The notes under the pieces: generated by a model
The model's database searches: none
What the model saw: the letters and a program-made list of their open reading frames with translations, nothing else
Told to the model about the DNA's origin: nothing
Source: a virus
Virus record (IMG/VR): IMGVR_UViG_3300032308_001355
Span: 1 to 64,000 of that record
DNA length: 64,000 nt
Direction: 5' to 3' (one strand)
Shown: positions 15,203 through 40,052 of the stretch, piece after piece
Layout: each line of letters starts with the position of its first letter
How positions within the stretch are numbered: position 1 is the stretch's first letter
Position numbers and translations under genes: made by a program

Positions 15203-17224
15203 TTATGGTTTTGGTACTTCACAGAAGTCCGTGGAGCAATACTTTTCACCAATAGCGTCCGCAGCCATGCCAGCGTACACGTCAGTAAAGTCAATAGGAA
15301 GTAATTTGTACTTGTATCCTTCGTACTCTTCTTTAGTAATTTGAGTGTATGGCATTTGAGGATAGACAGCGTTGCCCATAGGTAGGAAAGAGACAGTCTT
15401 TAGTTGTCCGTCGAACATATGAAGAACAGTACCAACGTGGTCTTTCTCAGTCTCAGCATTAAAAGAGACCGTTACTGATACTGAATTATCCGACCAATGA
15501 CGTTGAGCCATAGAAGCAAGAGAGGTCTTTTCATAAATAGTTACGTCCTTTTCAGAACGGAGAGCCTCAGATTCAATAGGGAAATAAACTACCGAAGTTG
15601 TTTTTGGAGATTCACTTGCTGGTTCAACCGTGTATCCACTTGCAGTAAAGAGAGGTAGCATAGGGTCTTCATTACCGAAACGAATAGTGCGTAAGAAGAA
15701 TTGACCGCCAGGAGTCCAATGTACCCCAGGAGATTCACCAGCCAAGATAGAAACAGTTCCCGAAGGTTTAACAGTTGTAGTCTTGATTGACTCACGGATA
15801 CCAAGCCACTCTGAGTATGACTTATCGTATGCCTGTATTACTTCGTATCCCTTATCCATCCACTCACGTAGAGCAGGTAACCCTGCGCGGTCAGCGAAGT
15901 TAGCGATACCTGAGATAGAAGTACCAATGCGACGATTACGTTGCATGATTGCGTTAGTTTCTTCCCAATGTGTAGGAAGAAGAGTAACGGTCTTAGCATA
16001 AAGATATGCAAACTTTAGTGTGCGCTTAAAGTCCTCTAGAGAGTCATGGCGATTCATATATGTCTCTACGAGAGTACAACACTCAAAAGATTCAAGAGAT
16101 TGTTCAGCGCAAGGGTTGTATCCCGCTGCGCGCCAGTCTTTGTTATTAGGAGCATCAATCAAACGACCATACTTCCTAGTAACATCCATCCAAATGACCC
16201 CAGGTTCACCGTTGCGGGCAATACCGTCAATGATTCCAGAGAAGTCATCCCCAACCTTTACCTCAACAGAGTTGTTGGACATCCAAGCCCAGCCAGGATT
16301 CTTCGGGTCATAAGAGTTACGCTCAGGATATACTTCAGCGTTCTTTAAATTAAGGAAGTCTTTGTCATCCAAACGACCCATCAAGAGCTCAGCCGAACGA
16401 CGGACATTTCCACTTACAACACAAACTCCAATTAAGTTACCAATATCTGCAATATCTTTACGAGTTAGTTTCTCACCAGCTCGATTGCTGAAGATTGCAC
16501 GCACATAGTTGTGTAACTTCTCTAGCGGCTCATGTCCTGCAGCGGTTCCGCCAAAGGTTTTAATAGGAGTTCCAGCAGGACGGATGAGCGAGTAGTCAAA
16601 CTCGCAGATATTCTGTTCAGACTTCAGGTAGGAGTTAATAAGTAATGAAGTTGATTCAACCCAACCCTCACGTGTATCAGGGATTACTGTGGTTACAGCA
16701 GGTAGTTTAGGCTCATAGATTGTGAAGTCTTTGTCCGCACCTTTGTCATCAAAGCCAACGCCTACGCCTAACATGCTTGCTTCCATGAGGAAGGCAAATG
16801 GTTTGGCTGGGTTAATCTTGGTCATAGACTCAGTAGAAACAAAAGAACAGTTTTGAAGAGCGGCTGAGTTGCGTTGCTCATTGACCAGAGGGGTACCCAT
16901 TACCCATAGTCCGCGCCCTGGCGGAGTCCACTTTAAATTAAAAAGGCGGTCATAGGCTTCTTTAGCAGAAGCCTGGGCTTTAGCATCATTCCAAGGAAGG
17001 CGGTTTAATTTAGCGTGGTCTTTTTGTAGGGAGTACATGCCATTGATAACACGCTCGCATACTTCAACCCAAGTCTCTTTAGTGCCGTCCTCTTTAAGAC
17101 GAGAATAGGTGCGCAAGAAAGTAATCTCACCTACTGCATTTCCGCCAGCATCCACATAGCCCCATGGGACTTTCTTGGATTTATATCCAGCGACAAAATC
17201 GTCCGCAAGATGGAATGACAACAT
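15203..17224 (-). CDS. nrdJ: Class II (adenosylcobalamin-dependent) ribonucleotide reductase, monomeric RTPR type
   Basis: 673 residues, ATG 17224 with AAGGGAGAT upstream. It reduces ribonucleotides to deoxyribonucleotides for phage DNA synthesis using coenzyme B12 as radical source. The alpha-barrel signatures are visible: LQNCSF near residues 130-135, GVGVGFDDKG near 160, the NPCAEQ active-site loop near 370, the VKPSGTVSIL loop near 490, and a C-terminal Cys pair (CSTDFC) that re-reduces the active site. Length and layout match the Lactobacillus leichmannii-type monomeric enzyme. No small subunit or activase gene is present, as expected for class II. Confidence 0.93.
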   Translation of the reverse strand: MLSFHLADDFVAGYKSKKVPWGYVDAGGNAVGEITFLRTYSRLKEDGTKETWVEVCERVINGMYSLQKDHAKLNRLPWNDAKAQASAKEAYDRLFNLKWTPPGRGLWVMGTPLVNEQRNSAALQNCSFVSTESMTKINPAKPFAFLMEASMLGVGVGFDDKGADKDFTIYEPKLPAVTTVIPDTREGWVESTSLLINSYLKSEQNICEFDYSLIRPAGTPIKTFGGTAAGHEPLEKLHNYVRAIFSNRAGEKLTRKDIADIGNLIGVCVVSGNVRRSAELLMGRLDDKDFLNLKNAEVYPERNSYDPKNPGWAWMSNNSVEVKVGDDFSGIIDGIARNGEPGVIWMDVTRKYGRLIDAPNNKDWRAAGYNPCAEQSLESFECCTLVETYMNRHDSLEDFKRTLKFAYLYAKTVTLLPTHWEETNAIMQRNRRIGTSISGIANFADRAGLPALREWMDKGYEVIQAYDKSYSEWLGIRESIKTTTVKPSGTVSILAGESPGVHWTPGGQFFLRTIRFGNEDPMLPLFTASGYTVEPASESPKTTSVVYFPIESEALRSEKDVTIYEKTSLASMAQRHWSDNSVSVTVSFNAETEKDHVGTVLHMFDGQLKTVSFLPMGNAVYPQMPYTQITKEEYEGYKYKLLPIDFTDVYAGMAADAIGEKYCSTDFCEVPKP

Positions 17225-17255
17225 ATTTATATCTCCCTTTGTTTAGTTGTGTTGC

Positions 17256-17273
17256 AACCCCCATTTGGGGGTT
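17256..17273. terminator. Short hairpin between RNR and its upstream gene
   Basis: AACCCCC-ATTT-GGGGGTT, 7 perfect pairs, in the 67-base gap. The T-rich flank is on the plus-strand side, so on the leftward transcript it may attenuate or mark RNA processing rather than terminate fully. Confidence 0.45.
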
Positions 17274-17291
17274 CTTATATGATAATAAGAA

Positions 17292-18752
17292 TTACTTATC
17301 TTCTAAAGATTGTTTGATAATTTGGGTGGTTTCAGATTCGTTCAATCCGCCTTCTGGCAGTTCCCGAAGTACCTGAGCCTTATCACCAAAGATAGAGGAT
17401 AGCACGCCAGCCGAGCCTTGGCGCTCTACAGTCATGCGAATAAACTCACGTGAGTCGTCCAATTCTTTGGTGGTTTTAATAAGTTTAAATAGTCGGTCAA
17501 TCTCTTGAGAAACGTTTGGGTCTGCGTATCCACCGTTCATTTCTTCGCTAAAACGCATAAAAGCAACGCGTTGTCCTTGCATTTCAATGACTGCGTTAAT
17601 CAAAGACTTTAGTTGGTCTTTGGTCTTAATGCTAACTGGTAACTTAAAAGCGCATGTACTTGATGGTTTAAAAGCAGGACAGTTAGAAGCTACAAAGCAT
17701 GTATCGCACGCTCGAAGTGAGACATCCTGTGAGGTAAGTGTAGTCACATCTTTGATAGTTCCATCGTCTTCTACAATGGTCTCTAACTCGTAACCGAAGA
17801 CAGGTAAATTGCCCATTTCCTCTGGCTTACGGGGTTCAAGTTTGCGTACCTGAGTACCCTTATTATCAATATGGGAAGGGGTAGTTTCCCCATTTTGCTC
17901 CACTTCGCTCCCCCCGCTATTATCATATAAGAAGTCGTCGTTATTCATTCCATTTAACCTCGCTTCGTACTGCAAGTAAGACCAGACTGCCAAACGACAG
18001 ACTTCCTTAGAGTCATCTTCTAATATCTTATCTACATCTAACCTAGCCTTTGTATATACGTTTCTGTATCTAGTGCGGGCTTGGTCTTTCATTCGTTTGG
18101 GGTATCGCTTGATTTGAGTACCGTCCCAGACAATAGTTTCGCCATTCATCATGGGAGACAACCAAGCCATAGTGCTGGCGGTTTCTGCAGATACTTGACG
18201 TAAATTGTCGGGTTTAGCGGAGCCTAGCACATGAAACCGTGTACCGTGCTTGCGGTTAATAGTCCTAGTGACCATAGCAAGTTGAACTTCTGTTTCTAAA
18301 GATTCCCCAGAAATACCAATGTCCAGATAGTCTTCAGCCATTCGATGAAGACCAGCGTAGCCCGTGGTGGGCTCCCAAACGGGTAAAAACTTACCAGGTG
18401 GTACTTGAGACCAGGCTGTTCGTCGTTGTTGTAGTACAAACTCTTGGTCTATGCGTGGCCCTGAGATTTCACTGAAGACATTAATCCTATCAACGTTGTT
18501 TGCTATAAATCCTTCATACTCAGCGGCAAAATCCTCAAGCTCTTCAGCTGTTAATTCCGTGTCTTTTGGTATGCCTGGGTATACATAAATATAAAATGAG
18601 TCTTTAAAGTAGTTCTTTAATAAATAATCGCTTTTCTTTGGAAGCCCTCGTTGTTTCAGCCGCCAGAAGCTAACACCTACGTGGGTTGCCCCTGTGGTTT
18701 CTAATAAAGTACGATTTGAGGGAACCTCTGCTCCCAACATTACAAGTTTCAT
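17292..18752 (-). CDS. TIM-barrel protein resembling tRNA-guanine transglycosylase/DpdA, with Cys-rich C-terminal domain
   Basis: 486 residues. Residues 1-270 read like a TGT-type barrel: an N-terminal strand with GAEVPSN, then FLPVWEPTTGYAGLHRMAED (about 122-141) and RFHVLGSAKPDNLRQV near 170-187, which parallel the substrate and zinc-end loops of TGT/DpdA proteins. The second half carries a CDTC-x5-NC-x7-TC cluster near 350-370 and a helical tail that looks like a separate domain. DpdA proteins put 7-deazaguanines into DNA, but no preQ0 synthesis genes are in the window, so DNA modification is only a hypothesis. Overlaps the upstream gene by four bases. Confidence 0.5.
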   Translation of the reverse strand: MKLVMLGAEVPSNRTLLETTGATHVGVSFWRLKQRGLPKKSDYLLKNYFKDSFYIYVYPGIPKDTELTAEELEDFAAEYEGFIANNVDRINVFSEISGPRIDQEFVLQQRRTAWSQVPPGKFLPVWEPTTGYAGLHRMAEDYLDIGISGESLETEVQLAMVTRTINRKHGTRFHVLGSAKPDNLRQVSAETASTMAWLSPMMNGETIVWDGTQIKRYPKRMKDQARTRYRNVYTKARLDVDKILEDDSKEVCRLAVWSYLQYEARLNGMNNDDFLYDNSGGSEVEQNGETTPSHIDNKGTQVRKLEPRKPEEMGNLPVFGYELETIVEDDGTIKDVTTLTSQDVSLRACDTCFVASNCPAFKPSSTCAFKLPVSIKTKDQLKSLINAVIEMQGQRVAFMRFSEEMNGGYADPNVSQEIDRLFKLIKTTKELDDSREFIRMTVERQGSAGVLSSIFGDKAQVLRELPEGGLNESETTQIIKQSLEDK

Positions 18753-24593: not shown

Positions 24594-25169
24594 CTAGGCG
24601 TACTGAGTGTATATGCGAGTCTCTCCGCCCGAGTTTGTATCAAATTCTTTTGCGGCGTTTACTGCACTGGTCATAGCTTTTGCAGCCAAATCTATATCTT
24701 TAAATATCTTAGAACCAGCAGCATACAAAGCACCTTGGGCAAAATCCCCACCACTTCCTGTAGCAAAGTAATTTCGAGCGTCTCGGTCTAGTGAGTAATC
24801 CTCATCAATTATGTATAGGGTCCCCTGAACTGCAACAAGAAATACGTTTTCAAACTGGGCATAATCCCCATCGTCTTTCATATCGTAACCACCATCAATA
24901 AAAACTTGACGCATTCCAGGAATAAAAGTGTTTATCATCCAAGCATCTAATTGGTCGGGTGTGCTATTAACACGGGGCTTTGGTGCTTTCCAACCACGTT
25001 GCAAAAGGTTCATACCCCGACCAATACCGCAACCAGCAATTAAAATACCATTATTGTCTACGACCTTATGGTCTTTCATAAATACATTTCGGTATTCATT
25101 ATAAGTGCCTTGTGAATCAGCGCCCATTACTACCCAACCATCACCTTGAATAGCTGCGATTGTGGTCAT
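24594..25169 (-). CDS. HslV/20S-proteasome-beta-like Ntn hydrolase
   Basis: 191 residues; AAGGAG upstream of the ATG. After removal of Met the protein starts TTIAA, exactly like mature HslV and proteasome beta subunits where Thr1 is the nucleophile. Asp17 (GADSQ) is at the canonical position and a Lys lies at 34, near the usual Lys33. The later TGSGGDFAQGAL motif matches the HslV GSGG/YA-x-GA signature. It is therefore likely a self-compartmentalised threonine protease. No HslU or other cognate unfoldase is next to it; the host ATPase or another partner could feed it. Flanked by two terminators, so transcribed on its own. Confidence 0.85.
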   Translation of the reverse strand: MTTIAAIQGDGWVVMGADSQGTYNEYRNVFMKDHKVVDNNGILIAGCGIGRGMNLLQRGWKAPKPRVNSTPDQLDAWMINTFIPGMRQVFIDGGYDMKDDGDYAQFENVFLVAVQGTLYIIDEDYSLDRDARNYFATGSGGDFAQGALYAAGSKIFKDIDLAAKAMTSAVNAAKEFDTNSGGETRIYTQYA

Positions 25170-26415: not shown

Positions 26416-26585
26416 TGTCCTCCCCAACCCCCACCTTTAAGTTGAATAGCAAAACTAGAAAACTTACGAGATGCCTCTTTACCGCAGCTAGTACACAGCA
26501 CTGAGGGGGCTGGGCCATCAACTATAGGAAAAAACTGCTCAGATTCTGCTTTGCAGTGCGGACATTGGTACTCATACGTAGGCAT
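26412..26585 (-). CDS. FmdB-family zinc-ribbon protein, 57 aa
   Basis: Opens MPTYEYQCPHC and has CTSC near residues 31-34, the hallmark of the FmdB putative regulatory family, and ends with GGGWGG like many members. TAATG overlap with the RuvC gene upstream and ATGA overlap with the next gene. Role in phages unknown; probably binds zinc. Confidence 0.8.
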   Translation of the reverse strand: MPTYEYQCPHCKAESEQFFPIVDGPAPSVLCTSCGKEASRKFSSFAIQLKGGGWGGQ

Positions 26586-27124
26586 TATCGTTCCCTAAAT
26601 TTTGGGTCTTGAAGCTTATCGTAAACTTCTTTTTCATACGCACGAGTATACGAGCCAGAAATCAAATGTGCAAGTACGTAAGAATCTGCTGCATTATCGT
26701 CTGTAAACTCAGCGCCCCAATTCTTGTATACGTGTAAAAGTATTTGGCTTTTTGATACCCCATTGCCCTTACCGCAAGCGTATTTCTTAAGGTTAGTTGG
26801 CGGGACTATAAGGGGGTAAATGCCAAAATCAAGCAAAGTTAGTTTTACCATGCCGCCAAGCTCGCCAAGCATATTAGCCATTTGACTACCAAATGCATAG
26901 CCTTCCATGGCCACGTCTTCAATATTATTAAATTGATAAAGCCAGTTCATCACGTGGCTTTGTATATCCCTAAGTCTGTCTATACCGCGCTTATCTGATT
27001 TATAAACTTCTGTGTAGTAGTTACCAGCCTGAAACGCTGTTATAGCAAAGCCACTATAAGACTGGTCAATACCTAAATAAACTGGACGTTCTCTGTCTAC
27101 AGTTCCGTTATAAAATACTTTCAC
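26585..27124 (-). CDS. RuvC-like Holliday junction resolvase
   Basis: 179 residues. The RNase H-fold acidic residues are visible: Asp20 in YLGIDQSYSG, Glu74 in AMEGYAFG, and the DDNAAD cluster at 142-147. The LKKYACGKG and VSKSQI stretch matches the loop that contacts DNA in RuvC proteins. It should cut Holliday junctions or other branched DNA before packaging. Its neighbours are a Cas4-like nuclease, RecA and a second resolvase-like nuclease. Confidence 0.9.
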   Translation of the reverse strand: MKVFYNGTVDRERPVYLGIDQSYSGFAITAFQAGNYYTEVYKSDKRGIDRLRDIQSHVMNWLYQFNNIEDVAMEGYAFGSQMANMLGELGGMVKLTLLDFGIYPLIVPPTNLKKYACGKGNGVSKSQILLHVYKNWGAEFTDDNAADSYVLAHLISGSYTRAYEKEVYDKLQDPKFRER

Positions 27125-27600
27125 TAAAACCTAGACTTCATAGATGAGGTACGGCGGGTTAATTCACGGCTTGTTAGCTGGTAATACCGTTCTAAGTTGT
27201 CTTGCATAGTCTTAAGAAGCTTATGGTATGCCTTGGCATGCATCAAGCCTTGTGACATAGTTTCCATCTCTGGGTTAATTAAAATGGATGCTTTTATAGT
27301 CGTTGCTTTAGCTTTTGGGTCAGCAGAGCCTGTAATCAAAAGCTTTGCTTCTTCCTTATCATAGATGCTCTCTGCTTCAGTTACAGCAAGCTCTGCACAA
27401 GCTACCTGTGTAATTAAGAAGTTGTAATTTTCCATGTAACAACGAGCCAATTGCATTAGTTCTTGGTCATCCACAGCTGTGATATCCCTAGGGAAAGAAG
27501 GGACATCAATATCTAACTTACGTCTAACGGGTAATCCTTGCGATTCTAGTACAGATAATACTGAACCGCTGACCCCATTTGCAAGTAACTCAATTGCCAT
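27124..27600 (-). CDS. Hypothetical helical protein in the recombination cluster, 158 aa
   Basis: ATG 27600 overlaps the end of the Cas4-like gene; an earlier in-frame start at 27630 lies deeper inside that gene. Mostly helical with a long amphipathic middle and an Arg-rich C-terminus (LTRRTSSMKSRF). By position it could be a recombination accessory or ssDNA-binding factor, which is inference. Confidence 0.6.
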   Translation of the reverse strand: MAIELLANGVSGSVLSVLESQGLPVRRKLDIDVPSFPRDITAVDDQELMQLARCYMENYNFLITQVACAELAVTEAESIYDKEEAKLLITGSADPKAKATTIKASILINPEMETMSQGLMHAKAYHKLLKTMQDNLERYYQLTSRELTRRTSSMKSRF

Positions 27601-28432
27601 AGTCTTTACACCTTCCGCAACCATCTGCATTTATATTACATAGTGGCGGCGTACCCGCCTTTACAGATTCAACAATCATCTTAGCAGCATCAAACAAATG
27701 TTGTATACCCCAGTTACTACGTGGAATTACAAACTCTTTGCTCTCCTGATTGGGCTTTGCTTCATAAATAATTACAGCCTCGTCAGGGACGTCTTCATAT
27801 CCTTGTAGCTTAGCAAGTTCTAAATACATCTGTACTTGGTCAATGTGTTTTTGAAACGGGGCATCAATTGATTTCCAAGTTTTATTAAAATCATATCCAT
27901 TGTCTGCGTACAGTCCAGGACATTCCCATCGAAGCGTACCCTCACCTACAGATTTAATTTCTAGAAATAAAGGGTTACCTAAACCAACAAGCCATCCATC
28001 GGCTTTTCCAGTAATACGGTACTCTTCATTAATAAAAGGTACTTCTCTATAATGTAATGGCCCGTCGTGGCAATCAAACATTCCAAAAAATAACTCGCCA
28101 CACTCTTCGCACCACCATTGACCCTTTAGAACACCCATGTTTTTAAACCAAGTTTGCCACTTATTGTGAATGTCATGTCCTTCTTGAAATACTGTTTCTA
28201 AACGAAGACTAGACGTTCGTGTATCTGAGGGTGTGTGACCAAGCAAATGAAAATAAGAAGCACGGTGGCACCAATCTTTCCCAACCATATCGGATGGGTG
28301 AAGCATGTCGGTACGACGTGATTTATCTTTAGGGCGAGAAATAAGATAACGCTCTACGGAACCAAGTACGCGGGTATCTTTCTTAGCCACGTCTATAAAC
28401 TTCTTTAAGGCCCCACTTGGTTTGTATGTCAT
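27590..28432 (-). CDS. Cas4-like PD-(D/E)XK exonuclease with Fe-S-type cysteines
   Basis: 280 residues. Catalytic motifs GKADGW (Asp145) and FLEIKS (Glu158, Lys160) and a downstream HIDQVQMY Gln follow the RecB/Cas4 nuclease pattern. One N-terminal Cys (55) and three C-terminal Cys (265, 272, 275) are spaced like the [4Fe-4S] ligands of Cas4. An extra pair at 108/111 may bind zinc. No CRISPR array or other cas genes are present, so a role in phage recombination or end resection is the likely one. Confidence 0.85.
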   Translation of the reverse strand: MTYKPSGALKKFIDVAKKDTRVLGSVERYLISRPKDKSRRTDMLHPSDMVGKDWCHRASYFHLLGHTPSDTRTSSLRLETVFQEGHDIHNKWQTWFKNMGVLKGQWWCEECGELFFGMFDCHDGPLHYREVPFINEEYRITGKADGWLVGLGNPLFLEIKSVGEGTLRWECPGLYADNGYDFNKTWKSIDAPFQKHIDQVQMYLELAKLQGYEDVPDEAVIIYEAKPNQESKEFVIPRSNWGIQHLFDAAKMIVESVKAGTPPLCNINADGCGRCKDYGN

Positions 28433-34932: not shown

Positions 34933-36522
34933 TTATACGACAGCTGATATAAGGAACTGCTTTAAACTGCCAATTGTAAGAGCTAATTCACCGTCCTTGT
35001 CTATTCCTTTACCGTCAATGACTGCGTCTGCTACTGCGGATTTTTGCTGCAAGGACTCCCACTGACGCTCTTCAATACTCCCACGTATAAGAATGTCAGC
35101 AATAACTATAGAGGGCCAGGTAGAAGAAGCGCGTTTGATACGTCCATTGCGCTGAACAGCTGTGCCAGAAGACCAAGGTAAGTCATAGTTTATTAGTAAG
35201 TTGGCTGCTGGTAGGTCTACGCCATAGCCTCCAGCGTCAGAACTAATTAATACGCGAATACTTGGGTTTTCATTAAAAGCAATTTTATTATCTTCTTTAG
35301 TCTTAGCATCTAAACGACCTGAGTATAAGCGACATTGGTCTGGGCCTAAAGCTTCAGCAATTTTATCAAGCATATCTACATATGTAGCAAAGATAACAAC
35401 CTTATTAAGGTCATTTTGTTCTAAAAAGTCTTTTACATATTGAATTAAATAATCAAGTTTAGGTGATGAGGTTAACTCTTCTAATGCCCCAGCTTGCACT
35501 AGCTCAGCAGCGTAAGCTGAACCCTCACCGTTCATAAGATGAAACTTGCGAGCGCTAGTAGTAAGCAAATCTGGGTGCGAACAAAGCATTTTGAGGCAGC
35601 CTATCTTAGACATAATTTTTCCACGCATTTCGTCCTCAGGCCCCCCAGAGCGACCCTCTTGACCGTAATGGGTAAGAATGTTAAAGCTTGCTCCAAAAAG
35701 ACTTTGAGCCTCTTCTAACTCCTCTACAAGGTCGTGCACAACCCTTGTATATAATTTAGAAGTTTTGCGGTCAAAATGAATCATTATAGGGTCTTGATGA
35801 ATAGTGGCTGGTAAATACGGAGCAACATCATCGTCTCTTTGTGATTTACGAACACTTGCTTCTTTCATTTTAGTGTGCAACGTTGGCAAATTTCTATAGT
35901 GTTTAACACCTCCCCATGAGTTTCGCACAATAAACGCTGAATCAAATATATCAAAACGACCAAGTACTGTTGGGTCTACAAATTGCATAATGCTATATAG
36001 CTCTTCTGGTTTTCCATTTTCAATTGGAGTACCAGTAAGCGCAAAACGGTAAGGGGTATGAAGTAAACGTTTTACGTGTTTAGAGCGCTTAGACCTAAAT
36101 GATTTTATAGCTGTTGCTTCGTCAAGTACTACAAATCCTCGTGGTAAGTCTTTGATGGAATCCCAGTCGTTAACAACTTGCTCGTAGTTAAGAATGATGT
36201 AATCAACCCCTGAATTCCTCCAGTCCATAGCTTCGGAGTATTGTGATGTTCTTTTCTTTGGCGTTCCATCAATAACCAAAGCTTTTGAAGTTCCATTTGT
36301 AAATTTCTCAATCTGATTAGCCCACTGATATTTAAGTGAAGATAAACAAATTATAAGACCTGGCTCTGTAACTTTGTTCTCATCCATCAAACGCTCTATA
36401 GCTGCAATTGTAATAACAGTCTTGCCAAGCCCTAAATCGTAAGCAACAAGCATTTTGGTTCGCTCGCACATACGGTCTACGGCTTCTGGTTGATAAGGTA
36501 GCAAAGTACCTTTAAAAGTCAT
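34933..36522 (-). CDS. SNF2-like superfamily 2 helicase
   Basis: 529 residues. Walker A YDLGLGKT at 28-35, DEAT box at 134-137, LTGTPIEN motif III near 175, and the C-terminal helicase motifs VIFATYVDML and QRNGRIKRAS with the arginine fingers. An ATP-driven DNA translocase that could remodel replication forks or remove bound proteins. Overlaps the dNMP kinase gene by four bases. Confidence 0.9.
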   Translation of the reverse strand: MTFKGTLLPYQPEAVDRMCERTKMLVAYDLGLGKTVITIAAIERLMDENKVTEPGLIICLSSLKYQWANQIEKFTNGTSKALVIDGTPKKRTSQYSEAMDWRNSGVDYIILNYEQVVNDWDSIKDLPRGFVVLDEATAIKSFRSKRSKHVKRLLHTPYRFALTGTPIENGKPEELYSIMQFVDPTVLGRFDIFDSAFIVRNSWGGVKHYRNLPTLHTKMKEASVRKSQRDDDVAPYLPATIHQDPIMIHFDRKTSKLYTRVVHDLVEELEEAQSLFGASFNILTHYGQEGRSGGPEDEMRGKIMSKIGCLKMLCSHPDLLTTSARKFHLMNGEGSAYAAELVQAGALEELTSSPKLDYLIQYVKDFLEQNDLNKVVIFATYVDMLDKIAEALGPDQCRLYSGRLDAKTKEDNKIAFNENPSIRVLISSDAGGYGVDLPAANLLINYDLPWSSGTAVQRNGRIKRASSTWPSIVIADILIRGSIEERQWESLQQKSAVADAVIDGKGIDKDGELALTIGSLKQFLISAVV

Positions 36523-37067
36523 ACAGGCAAGCCTACCAAACGACGTAAAACCAAAGCCTCTAGGTCTGCAATAGTTCCGTTGTTTACAAATATCTGGTCA
36601 ACAGGGTAACCATCTAGTTGAGTCTCTGATGTGTGAGAGTTAACGGGCTCAACCCCTAAACGTTTTATGCGCCATATCTGTGAGCCAGGATACCATTTTA
36701 TGTAATCAGCCTCATTTGTAAAACGTACGTCTGTAAACACCACGTTGTCTATGTTTTTATATCCACTAAGAGCTTGTTTAATCCAAAAGTCTTCTCCAAA
36801 CACTGTACGGGCGCCTACACCTGTAGTTTGAAGCAACTCACGTACAGTTTGATATTTTTTAGCTTCTTCCCAACCTACTTCATCAACAATAAGTTTAATG
36901 TAGTTAGGAGCAGTCTCATACAATAACTCACGAATTTTGTCAGCAAAAGCAATACGCCGATATCCGTAGTTATCTACAAGAATCTTTGCAACTGTATCTT
37001 TTCCAGACTGTGCATACCCAGTTAATCCAATAATCAAGGTATTTGCACGTACTTTCCAGTTAACCAT
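36519..37067 (-). CDS. Deoxynucleoside monophosphate kinase
   Basis: 182 residues in the long form. P-loop GYAQSGKDT near residue 17, a FADKIRELL stretch and TDVRFTNEADYI match the T4 gp1-type dNMP kinase. It converts dNMPs to dNDPs for phage DNA synthesis. Two starts compete: ATG 37067, which overlaps the protease gene by 34 bases, and TTG 37037, whose TTGA overlaps the protease stop. Neither has a clear binding site. Confidence 0.8.
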   Translation of the reverse strand: MVNWKVRANTLIIGLTGYAQSGKDTVAKILVDNYGYRRIAFADKIRELLYETAPNYIKLIVDEVGWEEAKKYQTVRELLQTTGVGARTVFGEDFWIKQALSGYKNIDNVVFTDVRFTNEADYIKWYPGSQIWRIKRLGVEPVNSHTSETQLDGYPVDQIFVNNGTIADLEALVLRRLVGLPV

Positions 37068-37918
37068 TCATTAGTTGCTGTGCTAGAAGATGTTGCTATT
37101 TTATTATAAGTGTCAGACCAAGTGCTTTGTAGATTTAAAACCCACCAAGCCGTCAAAGCGGCACTTGAGTTAGAGGTACCAACCATAAATTTAGTTTTAC
37201 CGTTTGGTTGAAGAGTAATCCAACGAGCATTTGCATAAAAACTTGTTTGGGTATTTCCATTACTGTACCTAGCAATATAAGGCTTAGCTGTTGGGTCATA
37301 TGGGCGCTTTTGAGACGTTGGGTCTGGATTGTCGGTAGCCCCTACTGAAACAACATCTGTCAGACAGGCAATTGAATCCATTGCAGACCTATTACCATCG
37401 TTACCAGAGGCTGCAATAACAGCCACATTATTTGCTTTTAATGATGCAACAACTTGAGTAGTTCCATCTGGAACTTTGCAACCATCAAATATTTTTCCCT
37501 GAGAAACGTTAACAGCAACTATGTTGTATTTAACACGGTTTACCGCAACCCAATCAAGAGCCAACTTAACTGCGTTATTAGAATAAATATAAGGATTACC
37601 TTTATCTGTAATACCTACAATACGAACGGGAATTAAACCTACTGATGGGTTTACTTTATTAATAATAGAAAGCATCTCTGTTCCATGCGTAAGGGTTGGG
37701 TTAGTTGTTACTCCAGTGTTAGACGCACCAGCGCCCTCCATAAAAGGCTTGCCATTGGGGCAGTTAGAGTATTCCAATATACATACCTCTGCCACAATAT
37801 TTGTAAATAATGCTGTGTTTACCCCAGAGTCAATAACAACTATTGACTTGGTTGGGTTTGCGTGAGCAGATGTAAGTGGTAGTAGTGAAAGTAATAATAC
37901 AAATATAAATTTTTTCAT
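37034..37918 (-). CDS. Secreted subtilisin-like (S8) serine protease
   Basis: 294 residues. The N-terminus MKKFIFVLLLSLLPLTSAHA is a clear Sec signal peptide. The catalytic triad is complete: Asp30 in VVIDSGV, His78 in THGTEM, and Ser249 in GTSNSSAA, with the oxyanion Asn173 in ASGNDGN. Mature size fits the subtilase core without a propeptide. Located in the replication operon between dNMP kinase and primase, an odd place for an exported enzyme. It may cleave host surface or competitor-phage proteins, or act at lysis. Signal peptide and triad are seen; the role is open. Confidence 0.9.
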   Translation of the reverse strand: MKKFIFVLLLSLLPLTSAHANPTKSIVVIDSGVNTALFTNIVAEVCILEYSNCPNGKPFMEGAGASNTGVTTNPTLTHGTEMLSIINKVNPSVGLIPVRIVGITDKGNPYIYSNNAVKLALDWVAVNRVKYNIVAVNVSQGKIFDGCKVPDGTTQVVASLKANNVAVIAASGNDGNRSAMDSIACLTDVVSVGATDNPDPTSQKRPYDPTAKPYIARYSNGNTQTSFYANARWITLQPNGKTKFMVGTSNSSAALTAWWVLNLQSTWSDTYNKIATSSSTATNEWLTGKYVQIP

Positions 37919-38832
37919 AATACGATATATCCCCTTGATATGTGTTTTGAGTTGTCTAATCCAAACCTTACCTCATCCAAGCTCATACCGCCAATATCTT
38001 TGACGTCTAAGCCGTTATAGTTAAAAAACCAAGCCTCCTTCTCCATATCCTTACACATGTTGTATAAGCTCATATTTGACTTATGACCAGCCTCATCGTT
38101 GTCCATAGCAAGGACTATTCGGTCCCCACCACGAATTAAATTAAACTGATGATTAGACACTAAAGCCCCGTAAGTTGCCACCCCACCAAGTATCCCTAAG
38201 GAAGCAAGCCTAATAACATCAAGAGGTGACTCTACAACAATCATGTCTCCAGACACATACTTATCATAACCAAATAAAGAATGGCTTTTTTGAATACCCG
38301 TAGGGTAGTTCCTAAAGTATCGTCGGTCATAACCTTTTTCTTGCCAACCTAAAAGTTTTCCTGTAGATGCCTCACGAATAGGTATAATCCAATTTTTATT
38401 ATGCCTATCCCAACAAAGCCCATAGTCACGCGCCGCGTTACTAGTTAACCCGCGAGATTTTAAAGCATCTGATGGTGGTTCTACAAATGCACTAAGCATT
38501 GATTCTGTTATGTATGTCTGCTCTTGAATCTTTGGTTGTTCACGTGTAGCTCGGTTAAACCTTGCAGATAACCCCTGTTCACTATCTAGCCATGACCTAG
38601 CGTCTATGTCACCCTGTTTATAATTGATAAGTGTGTAGAGGCTCCCTTTCCAACCGCAAGAAAAACAAATAAAAGCACCGCTGTCGGCATTGATGTAAAA
38701 AGAAGGGTTACGGTCTTTATGACCTGTACGTTCTTCGTGGGCTGGGCACTCAGCTTGAATCTCATAACCACGGTTTGAGTAGAACTCAACGCCTAAACGA
38801 GTTAAAGCGTCTTGCATTTCTTCAACGGTCAT
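37915..38832 (-). CDS. DnaG-like primase (zinc-binding and TOPRIM domains)
   Basis: 305 residues. Zinc site C29, H32, C56, C59 in the N-terminal domain, then a TOPRIM-like core with VVESPLDVIRL near 195 and AMDNDEAG near 238. It lacks a helicase domain; the separate DnaB gene follows. Makes primers for lagging strand synthesis. Overlaps neighbours by four bases on both sides. Confidence 0.9.
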   Translation of the reverse strand: MTVEEMQDALTRLGVEFYSNRGYEIQAECPAHEERTGHKDRNPSFYINADSGAFICFSCGWKGSLYTLINYKQGDIDARSWLDSEQGLSARFNRATREQPKIQEQTYITESMLSAFVEPPSDALKSRGLTSNAARDYGLCWDRHNKNWIIPIREASTGKLLGWQEKGYDRRYFRNYPTGIQKSHSLFGYDKYVSGDMIVVESPLDVIRLASLGILGGVATYGALVSNHQFNLIRGGDRIVLAMDNDEAGHKSNMSLYNMCKDMEKEAWFFNYNGLDVKDIGGMSLDEVRFGLDNSKHISRGYIVL

Positions 38833-40052
38833 AAGTCAGTCTCGTCAATCTCGCGAAATAGACCCGTGTCCCAATTCCACATAAGAGAAACTTCTTGAAA
38901 ACCACCGTTACGGTTTGCAATAACCTTAAGGGTACGGGTGTCATCTACAGTTTCGTCTTCACGCTGTAGACCAAAAATAACGTCCGCATCTTGATGGAAA
39001 GAAGATGAGTAGCCAATTGCATCCGCAGTAACCTGGCCTTTTCGCATCTTCCAATTAAGAACCTGGGTTGTAGCAACTACTGGAATCTTAGCTTTTTGAG
39101 CCAAACGCTTAAGTGCGCGAGTAATGTTAGTCATCTGCTGGTTATATGCCTCAGCACCTTCCTCGTCAATCATAAGGTAGGTACCATCAACGTAAACAAT
39201 GTCTGGTTTGAAGTTCTGAATCTTGCTAGCAACGCTACTTACGGTCACACCATTAGCAGAGTCAACAAACCACATCTCATCTTCCATGTTTTGAATGGAA
39301 TCAATCTTTTGATAAAAACGCGCTTCTTCTTCATCGGTCAAAGTACCTGTTCGCAAACGATGATGAGATACGCGAGCACGAATAGCATAGTAACGAAGTT
39401 TTTGTTCTTCGTTGTTCATTTCAAATGATAAAAACATAGGTCGTAATCCATTTAAATGATTAGTTGCAGCCATCTGCAAAGCAACTGTGGATTTACCTGT
39501 TTTTGGAGGGGCAACAATAAAAATTAACTGCCCAGCTTGCATACCAGCAGTGGAGGCATCCATAGTAGGAAACCCTGTAGAAAAACCAAGTAAACCTGGA
39601 TTGTTCTTACGACGCTCATATTCTTCTTTAGCGTTTGCGGCAGCCTTTGTAATCTCAATGTCGTTAGTGCGTGAAAGACCTTCACTCTCAATACGAGCAA
39701 AACCACGTAACAAAGCATTTAGAGCTTCTTCATGGTCTTTTTTATTTTCAACTTGTTCAATAGCGTCACTAATAGTTGAAACAACAATTGATTTTCGGCG
39801 CTCATCTACAAGACGGTCAATTAAATACTCAAGGCTATCCTCAACTAAAAGTGGTACATAAGTTGGAAAGTTTTCTTGAATTACTTCAAGGCTTGGGGTT
39901 TCTGAGTAATTAGCAAAATGGTGTTGAAGAAATTTAAAAAGCTTTTTATCACTTGGGTCATGAAACCAAGACTCGTTAACTCCTTTTTCAAATAAATAGT
40001 TAACGTTACGTCCCTGAACAATTTTGCTAAGTATCTTTGCTTCATGGTTCAT
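38829..40052 (-). CDS. DnaB-like replicative helicase
   Basis: 407 residues. RecA-type core with Walker A APPKTGKST at 181-189, Walker B PDIVYVDG, and a QVLNWKMRKG stretch near 330 as in DnaB motif H4. A shortened N-terminal domain compared with bacterial DnaB. Works with the primase and the DnaC-like loader encoded on either side. Confidence 0.9.
   Translation of the reverse strand: MNHEAKILSKIVQGRNVNYLFEKGVNESWFHDPSDKKLFKFLQHHFANYSETPSLEVIQENFPTYVPLLVEDSLEYLIDRLVDERRKSIVVSTISDAIEQVENKKDHEEALNALLRGFARIESEGLSRTNDIEITKAAANAKEEYERRKNNPGLLGFSTGFPTMDASTAGMQAGQLIFIVAPPKTGKSTVALQMAATNHLNGLRPMFLSFEMNNEEQKLRYYAIRARVSHHRLRTGTLTDEEEARFYQKIDSIQNMEDEMWFVDSANGVTVSSVASKIQNFKPDIVYVDGTYLMIDEEGAEAYNQQMTNITRALKRLAQKAKIPVVATTQVLNWKMRKGQVTADAIGYSSSFHQDADVIFGLQREDETVDDTRTLKVIANRNGGFQEVSLMWNWDTGLFREIDETDL

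Follow-up and report, generated by a model that had tools for sequence, protein, structure and literature searches.

Why a phage should keep a gene for a secreted protease among the genes that copy its genome is the question raised by the stretch of DNA analyzed here (the window), which covers 64,000 bases of an IMG/VR virus record 64,368 bases long. A predicted exported subtilase without a propeptide, recognized from its open reading frame, phmmer and family-profile matches, fold, and invariant residues, is encoded on the minus strand at exactly 37034 to 37918, where the frame specifies 294 amino acids from an ATG start and has no internal stop. It is surrounded by genes for PolA, a DNA primase (37915 to 38832; Pfam Zn_ribbon_DnaG/Toprim, PHROG 47), a deoxynucleoside monophosphate (dNMP) kinase (36519 to 37037; Pfam DNMK, PHROG 139), and, in the same operon by Pfam/PHROG annotation, an SNF2-type helicase (34933 to 36522) and a DnaB-like helicase (38829 to 40052), the last four all on the minus strand. 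The position of the subtilase, with the primase as its upstream flank and the kinase as its downstream flank, is referred to here as slot A.

The complete Asp-His-Ser triad claimed in a sequence-only reading of this DNA is present on the minus strand, with Asp30 in the motif VIDSG (codon at 37829 to 37831), His78 in THGTEM (37685 to 37687), and Ser249 in GTSNSSA (37172 to 37174, followed by N-S-S-A), together with the oxyanion-hole Asn173 in ASGND (37400 to 37402). These four residues are invariant among 59 distinct phage relatives, 9 actinobacterial proteins, and 5 remote homologues. Gln140, Ala253, and cysteines 46, 53, 147, and 185 are also invariant among the 59 distinct phage proteins, and the four cysteines are kept in the 9 bacterial and 5 remote proteins as well. 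The Asp-His-Ser order with an oxyanion Asn and the subtilisin fold place the protein in family S8. Among solved structures, subtilisin-like proteases were matched by phmmer at an E value of 2.6e-5 and by the family profile at 1.1e-8. Because the window protein has no match in Pfam or PHROGs, the case for homology rests on phmmer, the profile, the fold, and the motifs; two of seven relatives match PF00082 (best E value, 1e-11), and the Pro usually found in the serine motif is missing. An AlphaFold model built from 28 family members (pLDDT 87, pTM 0.87), which replaced an earlier, poor fold from 7 sequences (pLDDT 67), aligns with subtilisins at Z scores of 26 to 27 and an rmsd of 2.3 to 2.8 over 223 to 246 residues. 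At the level of this predicted structure, the window protein is confirmed as a subtilase with a subtilisin fold.

Pairwise dN/dS values for 13 phage pairs range from 0.06 to 0.13 and are mostly 0.06 to 0.10 (the window/L009 pair is saturated at silent sites); the gene has therefore been kept for its protein. Ala253 (window 37160 to 37162) replaces the usual subtilisin Pro225 in 59 of 59 phage proteins and is also kept in close bacterial relatives. This is the position changed (P225A) in engineered subtilisin peptide ligases, although nothing other than this likeness points to ligation.

The predicted Sec signal peptide spans residues 1 to 20 (37859 to 37918, minus strand) and has the sequence MKKFIFVLLLSLLPLTSAHA, in which a basic end is followed by a hydrophobic stretch and an AHA motif, cleavage being expected before the following Asn (AHA-N). 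An N terminus of the same type (basic, hydrophobic, AxA) is found in all full-length phage relatives except L039, and Ala20, at position −1 of the cleavage point, is conserved in 58 of 59 phage proteins, the exception again being L039, which has lost its signal peptide. This copy, on the same contig as L208, lies at the contig end (position 140), and the catalytic part of L039/L208 is still constrained (dN/dS of 0.064 versus L036). The four invariant cysteines fit an oxidizing place outside the cytoplasm, where they may form disulfides, with C46-C53 and C147-C185 as the guessed pairs. The expectation of an exported, active protease is well supported by the conserved signal peptide, these cysteines, the invariant triad, and purifying selection.

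No propeptide was found. Only nine residues lie between the AHA site and Asp30, a layout common to the full-length relatives, and there is no room for a propeptide because model residue 22 aligns with residue 24 of mature BPN'. Thus, judged from the AlphaFold model, the window subtilase lacks the propeptide and also the opening stretch of mature BPN'. A membrane or wall anchor is also absent; the C terminus reads NEWLTGKYVQIP, and neither sequence nor model contains a hydrophobic helix there.

Secreted S8A subtilisins such as BPN' share with the window protein the fold (Z of about 26), the order of the triad and oxyanion Asn, and secretion by a signal peptide, whereas the window protein lacks an I9-type propeptide and a counterpart of the first approximately 23 mature BPN' residues, has four invariant cysteines and Ala in place of Pro225, and is about 20% identical. 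The cyanobactin proteases PatA and PagA are also similar (PagA 4h6w, E value of 9e-7; PatA 3zxy, fold match with Z of 25.9), but the window protein has a signal peptide and no precursor peptide gene; identity with PatA/PatG was rejected (TIGR03895, 20 bits against a cut-off of 421, with replication genes as neighbors). QhpE, a quinohemoprotein maturation protease, is the best NCBIfam match (residues 26 to 176, E value of 2e-6), although the window locus has no maturation-system genes nearby and the window protein is predicted to be exported; at 27 bits against a cut-off of 165, this identity was likewise rejected. Mycosins are actinobacterial exported S8 proteases associated with type VII secretion. 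They are matched weakly by five of seven family members (best, 4e-10), but the window protein has no C-terminal membrane helix and no type VII genes were noticed near it, and a mycosin identity was not adopted.

Subtilases are already known in phages. The BFVD entries include S8 domains in tailed phages, with low identity to the window protein, among them A0A6J5NRV7 from an uncultured Caudovirales phage (24% identity, TM of 0.70), and BFVD also lists the subtilisin DY of Bacillus phage vB_BcoS-136. In the INPHARED collection, no phage protein is a full-length relative of the window subtilase. The combination seen in this family (export, no propeptide, invariant cysteines, slot behavior, and sharing with bacteria) is undescribed in the libraries and open PMC papers searched, and the freshwater actinophage papers examined in open PMC mention no protease or peptidase.

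The gene is tied closely to its neighbors. The primase and subtilase genes overlap by ATGA at 37915 to 37918. The longest kinase frame starts at 37067 and would overlap the subtilase by 34 bases. In relatives, the kinase start codon (ATG or GTG) coincides exactly with the stop of the subtilase (ATGA, GTGA), and the window kinase therefore most likely starts at TTG 37037, which gives a four-base overlap (TTGA). The four-base overlaps with primase and dNMP kinase described in the sequence-only reading are thus both recovered, the second given the TTG start, and the proposed translational coupling within the replication operon is supported in the window and in relatives. This shared coupling makes it likely that the subtilase is expressed together with the replication genes. 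Structural genes are on the same strand as the subtilase, and early timing is not proved by the gene arrangement.

At slot A, the gene is seldom present. A helicase search returned 80 loci, 69 of them with both primase and kinase, and the subtilase lies between the two in 3 of these 69; a primase search found it at slot A in 4 of 43 loci (the loci were not dereplicated, and both counts are of contigs rather than independent phages). Two loci, L103 and L104, have 94% helicase and 87 to 88% primase identity to the window and yet lack the subtilase; L104 has a different open reading frame, of 68 amino acids, at its position. Nucleotide alignments to four phages without the gene (L103, L104, L106, and L115) break identically, stopping at 37940 and resuming at 37036, and the insert (37037 to 37939, minus strand) therefore consists of one gene, with the overlaps preserved at both ends. 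A profile search of 24 contigs that lack the subtilase at the slot, mostly fragments, found no copy elsewhere, and the same query recovered all 13 known carriers as a control. LuckySocke, a Streptomyces phage of the BRock group, has no gene between primase and helicase, which overlap each other directly. Judged from these comparisons, the subtilase gene is an accessory one-gene cargo cassette, a description that is new here. Absence from close relatives together with decay had been named beforehand as the outcome that would speak against an exported protease; the subtilase is indeed missing from 66 of the 69 and 39 of the 43 loci that share this gene order, whereas the existing copies show no decay, in view of the low dN/dS. 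Since most slot A relatives do without the subtilase, its benefit would be conditional.

In a related clade, the subtilase occupies a second position in the same operon, slot B, where it lies between c1 and a RuvC-like resolvase and is followed by either the kinase or the small gene C29. Comparison with related phages indicates that this slot (26585 to 27630, minus strand) is empty in the window phage, where c1 (27124 to 27630) abuts the resolvase (26585 to 27124). The subtilase is present in 51 of 83 slot B loci having both flanks, a proportion that favors carriers because the loci were found with resolvase queries taken from carriers. Several slot B loci without the subtilase have other signal-peptide proteins, of family X (L213, L226-L229) or family Y (L199, L200, L253), and it therefore appears that the slot favors genes acting outside the cell. 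In one such locus, the slot B cargo is a Nol-like carbamoyltransferase (L204:1305-2969).

Family X consists of exported proteins of 212 to 231 amino acids, whose slot B genes stand by themselves or immediately precede that of the subtilase (for example, L214:1758-2393, L226:2536-3228, L260:1476-2111, and L213:1938-2621), and has no convincing PHROG match. In one sub-branch, X is directly upstream of the subtilase in at least 15 loci (examples are L214, L223, L225, L230, L233-L236, L239, L243, L245, L251, L260, L261, and L266); X is missing from the window and most subtilase loci, and it is also found without the subtilase. Subtilase genes behind X (L260 at about 2110, L236, L225, and L266) have no ATG, GTG, or TTG before the signal peptide, and the only evident start in X-preceded copies is an ATT overlapping the TAA stop of X (ATTAA). 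The suggestion that a substrate gene might be found thus met with a divided result: no lantibiotic-like gene was seen beside the window subtilase or its relatives, whereas the exported family X adjoins the subtilase in that sub-branch. A third setting, outside the replication operon, is found in L016, L017, and L049.

Close homologues with 47 to 67% identity occur in records titled uncultured actinobacterium, Actinomycetota, and Candidatus Nanopelagicaceae. In the order to which one of these belongs, a copy at an E value below 1e-70 is found in 7 of the 251 genomes sampled (interrupted by an internal stop in one), and a remote copy is found in 5 further genomes. No phage replication or structural genes were found in the flanks of the bacterial subtilases, which suggests a chromosomal location. 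A gene for a TPR-repeat protein lies upstream of the bacterial subtilase in five loci (L051, L052, L053, L054, and L055) and is not carried by the phage subtilase loci. A dual-specificity-phosphatase-like gene is found near bacterial subtilases and those of third-setting phages (L054:1148-1609, L094:2421-2900, L055:2191-2676, L016, L017, and L049). Models of defense families did not mark the bacterial subtilase loci as a whole; only in L050 (720-9680) does the subtilase have such neighbors, namely a type IIG restriction-methylation gene and a candidate-defense match (PDC-S57). In both trees, copies from phages are interleaved with those from bacteria, and the gene has therefore been exchanged between the two more than once. 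The trees differ at the base, with host copies near the base of the 44-row tree and phage copies near that of the larger tree.

The window virus probably infects a freshwater actinobacterium, because close homologues of its subtilase occur in the actinobacterial records above and because its PolA, SNF2 helicase, and tail sheath all have their closest matches in BRock-group Streptomyces phages (38 to 39% identity over 98 to 100% of the length), to which it would be distantly related. The tRNA-Gln gave no match in 101 genomes, and a simple whiB pattern scan gave no host assignment. Freshwater actinobacteria are among the most abundant lake bacteria. It is only recently that phages of the order "Ca. 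Nanopelagicales" were first brought into culture (PMC10202952).

The best explanation, to which we assign a probability of roughly 0.4, is that the gene is an accessory secreted-subtilase cassette in the replication operon of a contractile-tailed freshwater actinophage and trims proteins at or near the surface of the infected cell. The subtilase would be translated with primase and dNMP kinase during genome copying and exported by Sec, with removal of the signal peptide, and, having no propeptide, would be active once folded outside the membrane. Without a membrane or wall anchor, it would act in the cell-wall zone or just outside it and cut proteins on the infected cell's surface. The gain, the least certain step, would be the removal of surface proteins bound by other phages or by the phage's own progeny at release. 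Surface shaving of this kind, whether for exclusion or for easier release, fits because the slot prefers exported cargo and the distribution is on-off. It is possible that the cutting of receptors excludes other phages, as first proposed. More broadly, we suggest tentatively, and at somewhat less than even odds, that freshwater relatives of the BRock group keep swappable slots for secreted proteins in the replication operon, with a new propeptide-independent subtilase family, traded with hosts, as frequent cargo. If this is true, such phages would be at work on the exterior of the infected cell before the copying of their genome has ended.

Two other uses of a secreted protease are each unlikely, though worth serious consideration. 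The subtilase could be a nutritional auxiliary gene, cutting dissolved or surface proteins to peptides that a starved host imports to feed phage protein synthesis. Its predicted secretion without anchor or propeptide, its occurrence in genomes of actinobacteria, whose normal growth it could serve, and the adjoining nucleotide-supply gene are in keeping with this. However, a diffusible enzyme from one planktonic cell would presumably feed its neighbors equally, a close copy in only 7 of 251 sampled host-order genomes argues against a standard feeding enzyme, and the slot B alternatives X and Y are not enzyme-like. Alternatively, it could mature or destroy one exported partner (X, a bacteriocin, or a host signal peptide), like PatA, QhpE, and LanP, each of which acts on a single precursor. 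Although X is directly upstream in those 15 or more loci and the weak best matches among curated families (QhpE, PatA, and mycosin) are all maturation proteases, the scores fall far under the curated cut-offs (27 bits versus 165 for QhpE), X, as described above, is missing from the window and most subtilase loci and is also found without the subtilase, and neither a precursor-peptide gene nor a lan gene was seen close by.

A helper of release or lysis, stored outside the membrane and loosening surface proteins at lysis or freeing progeny from receptor-bearing debris, seems to us rather improbable: the predicted exported location, the missing anchor, and the exported X and Y in the same slot would suit it, but both slots place the subtilase among replication genes, no gene for lysis was recognized next to it, and most relatives manage without it. 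That the gene is dead or fading after chance acquisition is very improbable. Its absence from most close relatives at slot A would agree with such a fate, but the frame has no internal stop, all catalytic residues are kept, and the gene is retained at the majority of slot B loci; dN/dS values of mostly 0.06 to 0.10 contradict it directly.

A conserved, mobile protease of the exported type in such phages offers a concrete way into what a phage does beyond the cell membrane as it replicates, and a secreted subtilase that naturally dispenses with a propeptide would be worth studying as an enzyme for itself. Elsewhere in the window, a proteasome-subunit-like Ntn hydrolase is encoded at 24594 to 25169 on the minus strand (Pfam PF00227, E value of 5e-6), and a gene 35% identical to it is found directly upstream of the subtilase in two of the third-setting phages (L016:6019-6588 and L017:9156-9725). 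The window also carries ribonucleotide reductase and queuine tRNA-ribosyltransferase genes at 15203 to 18752, on the minus strand.
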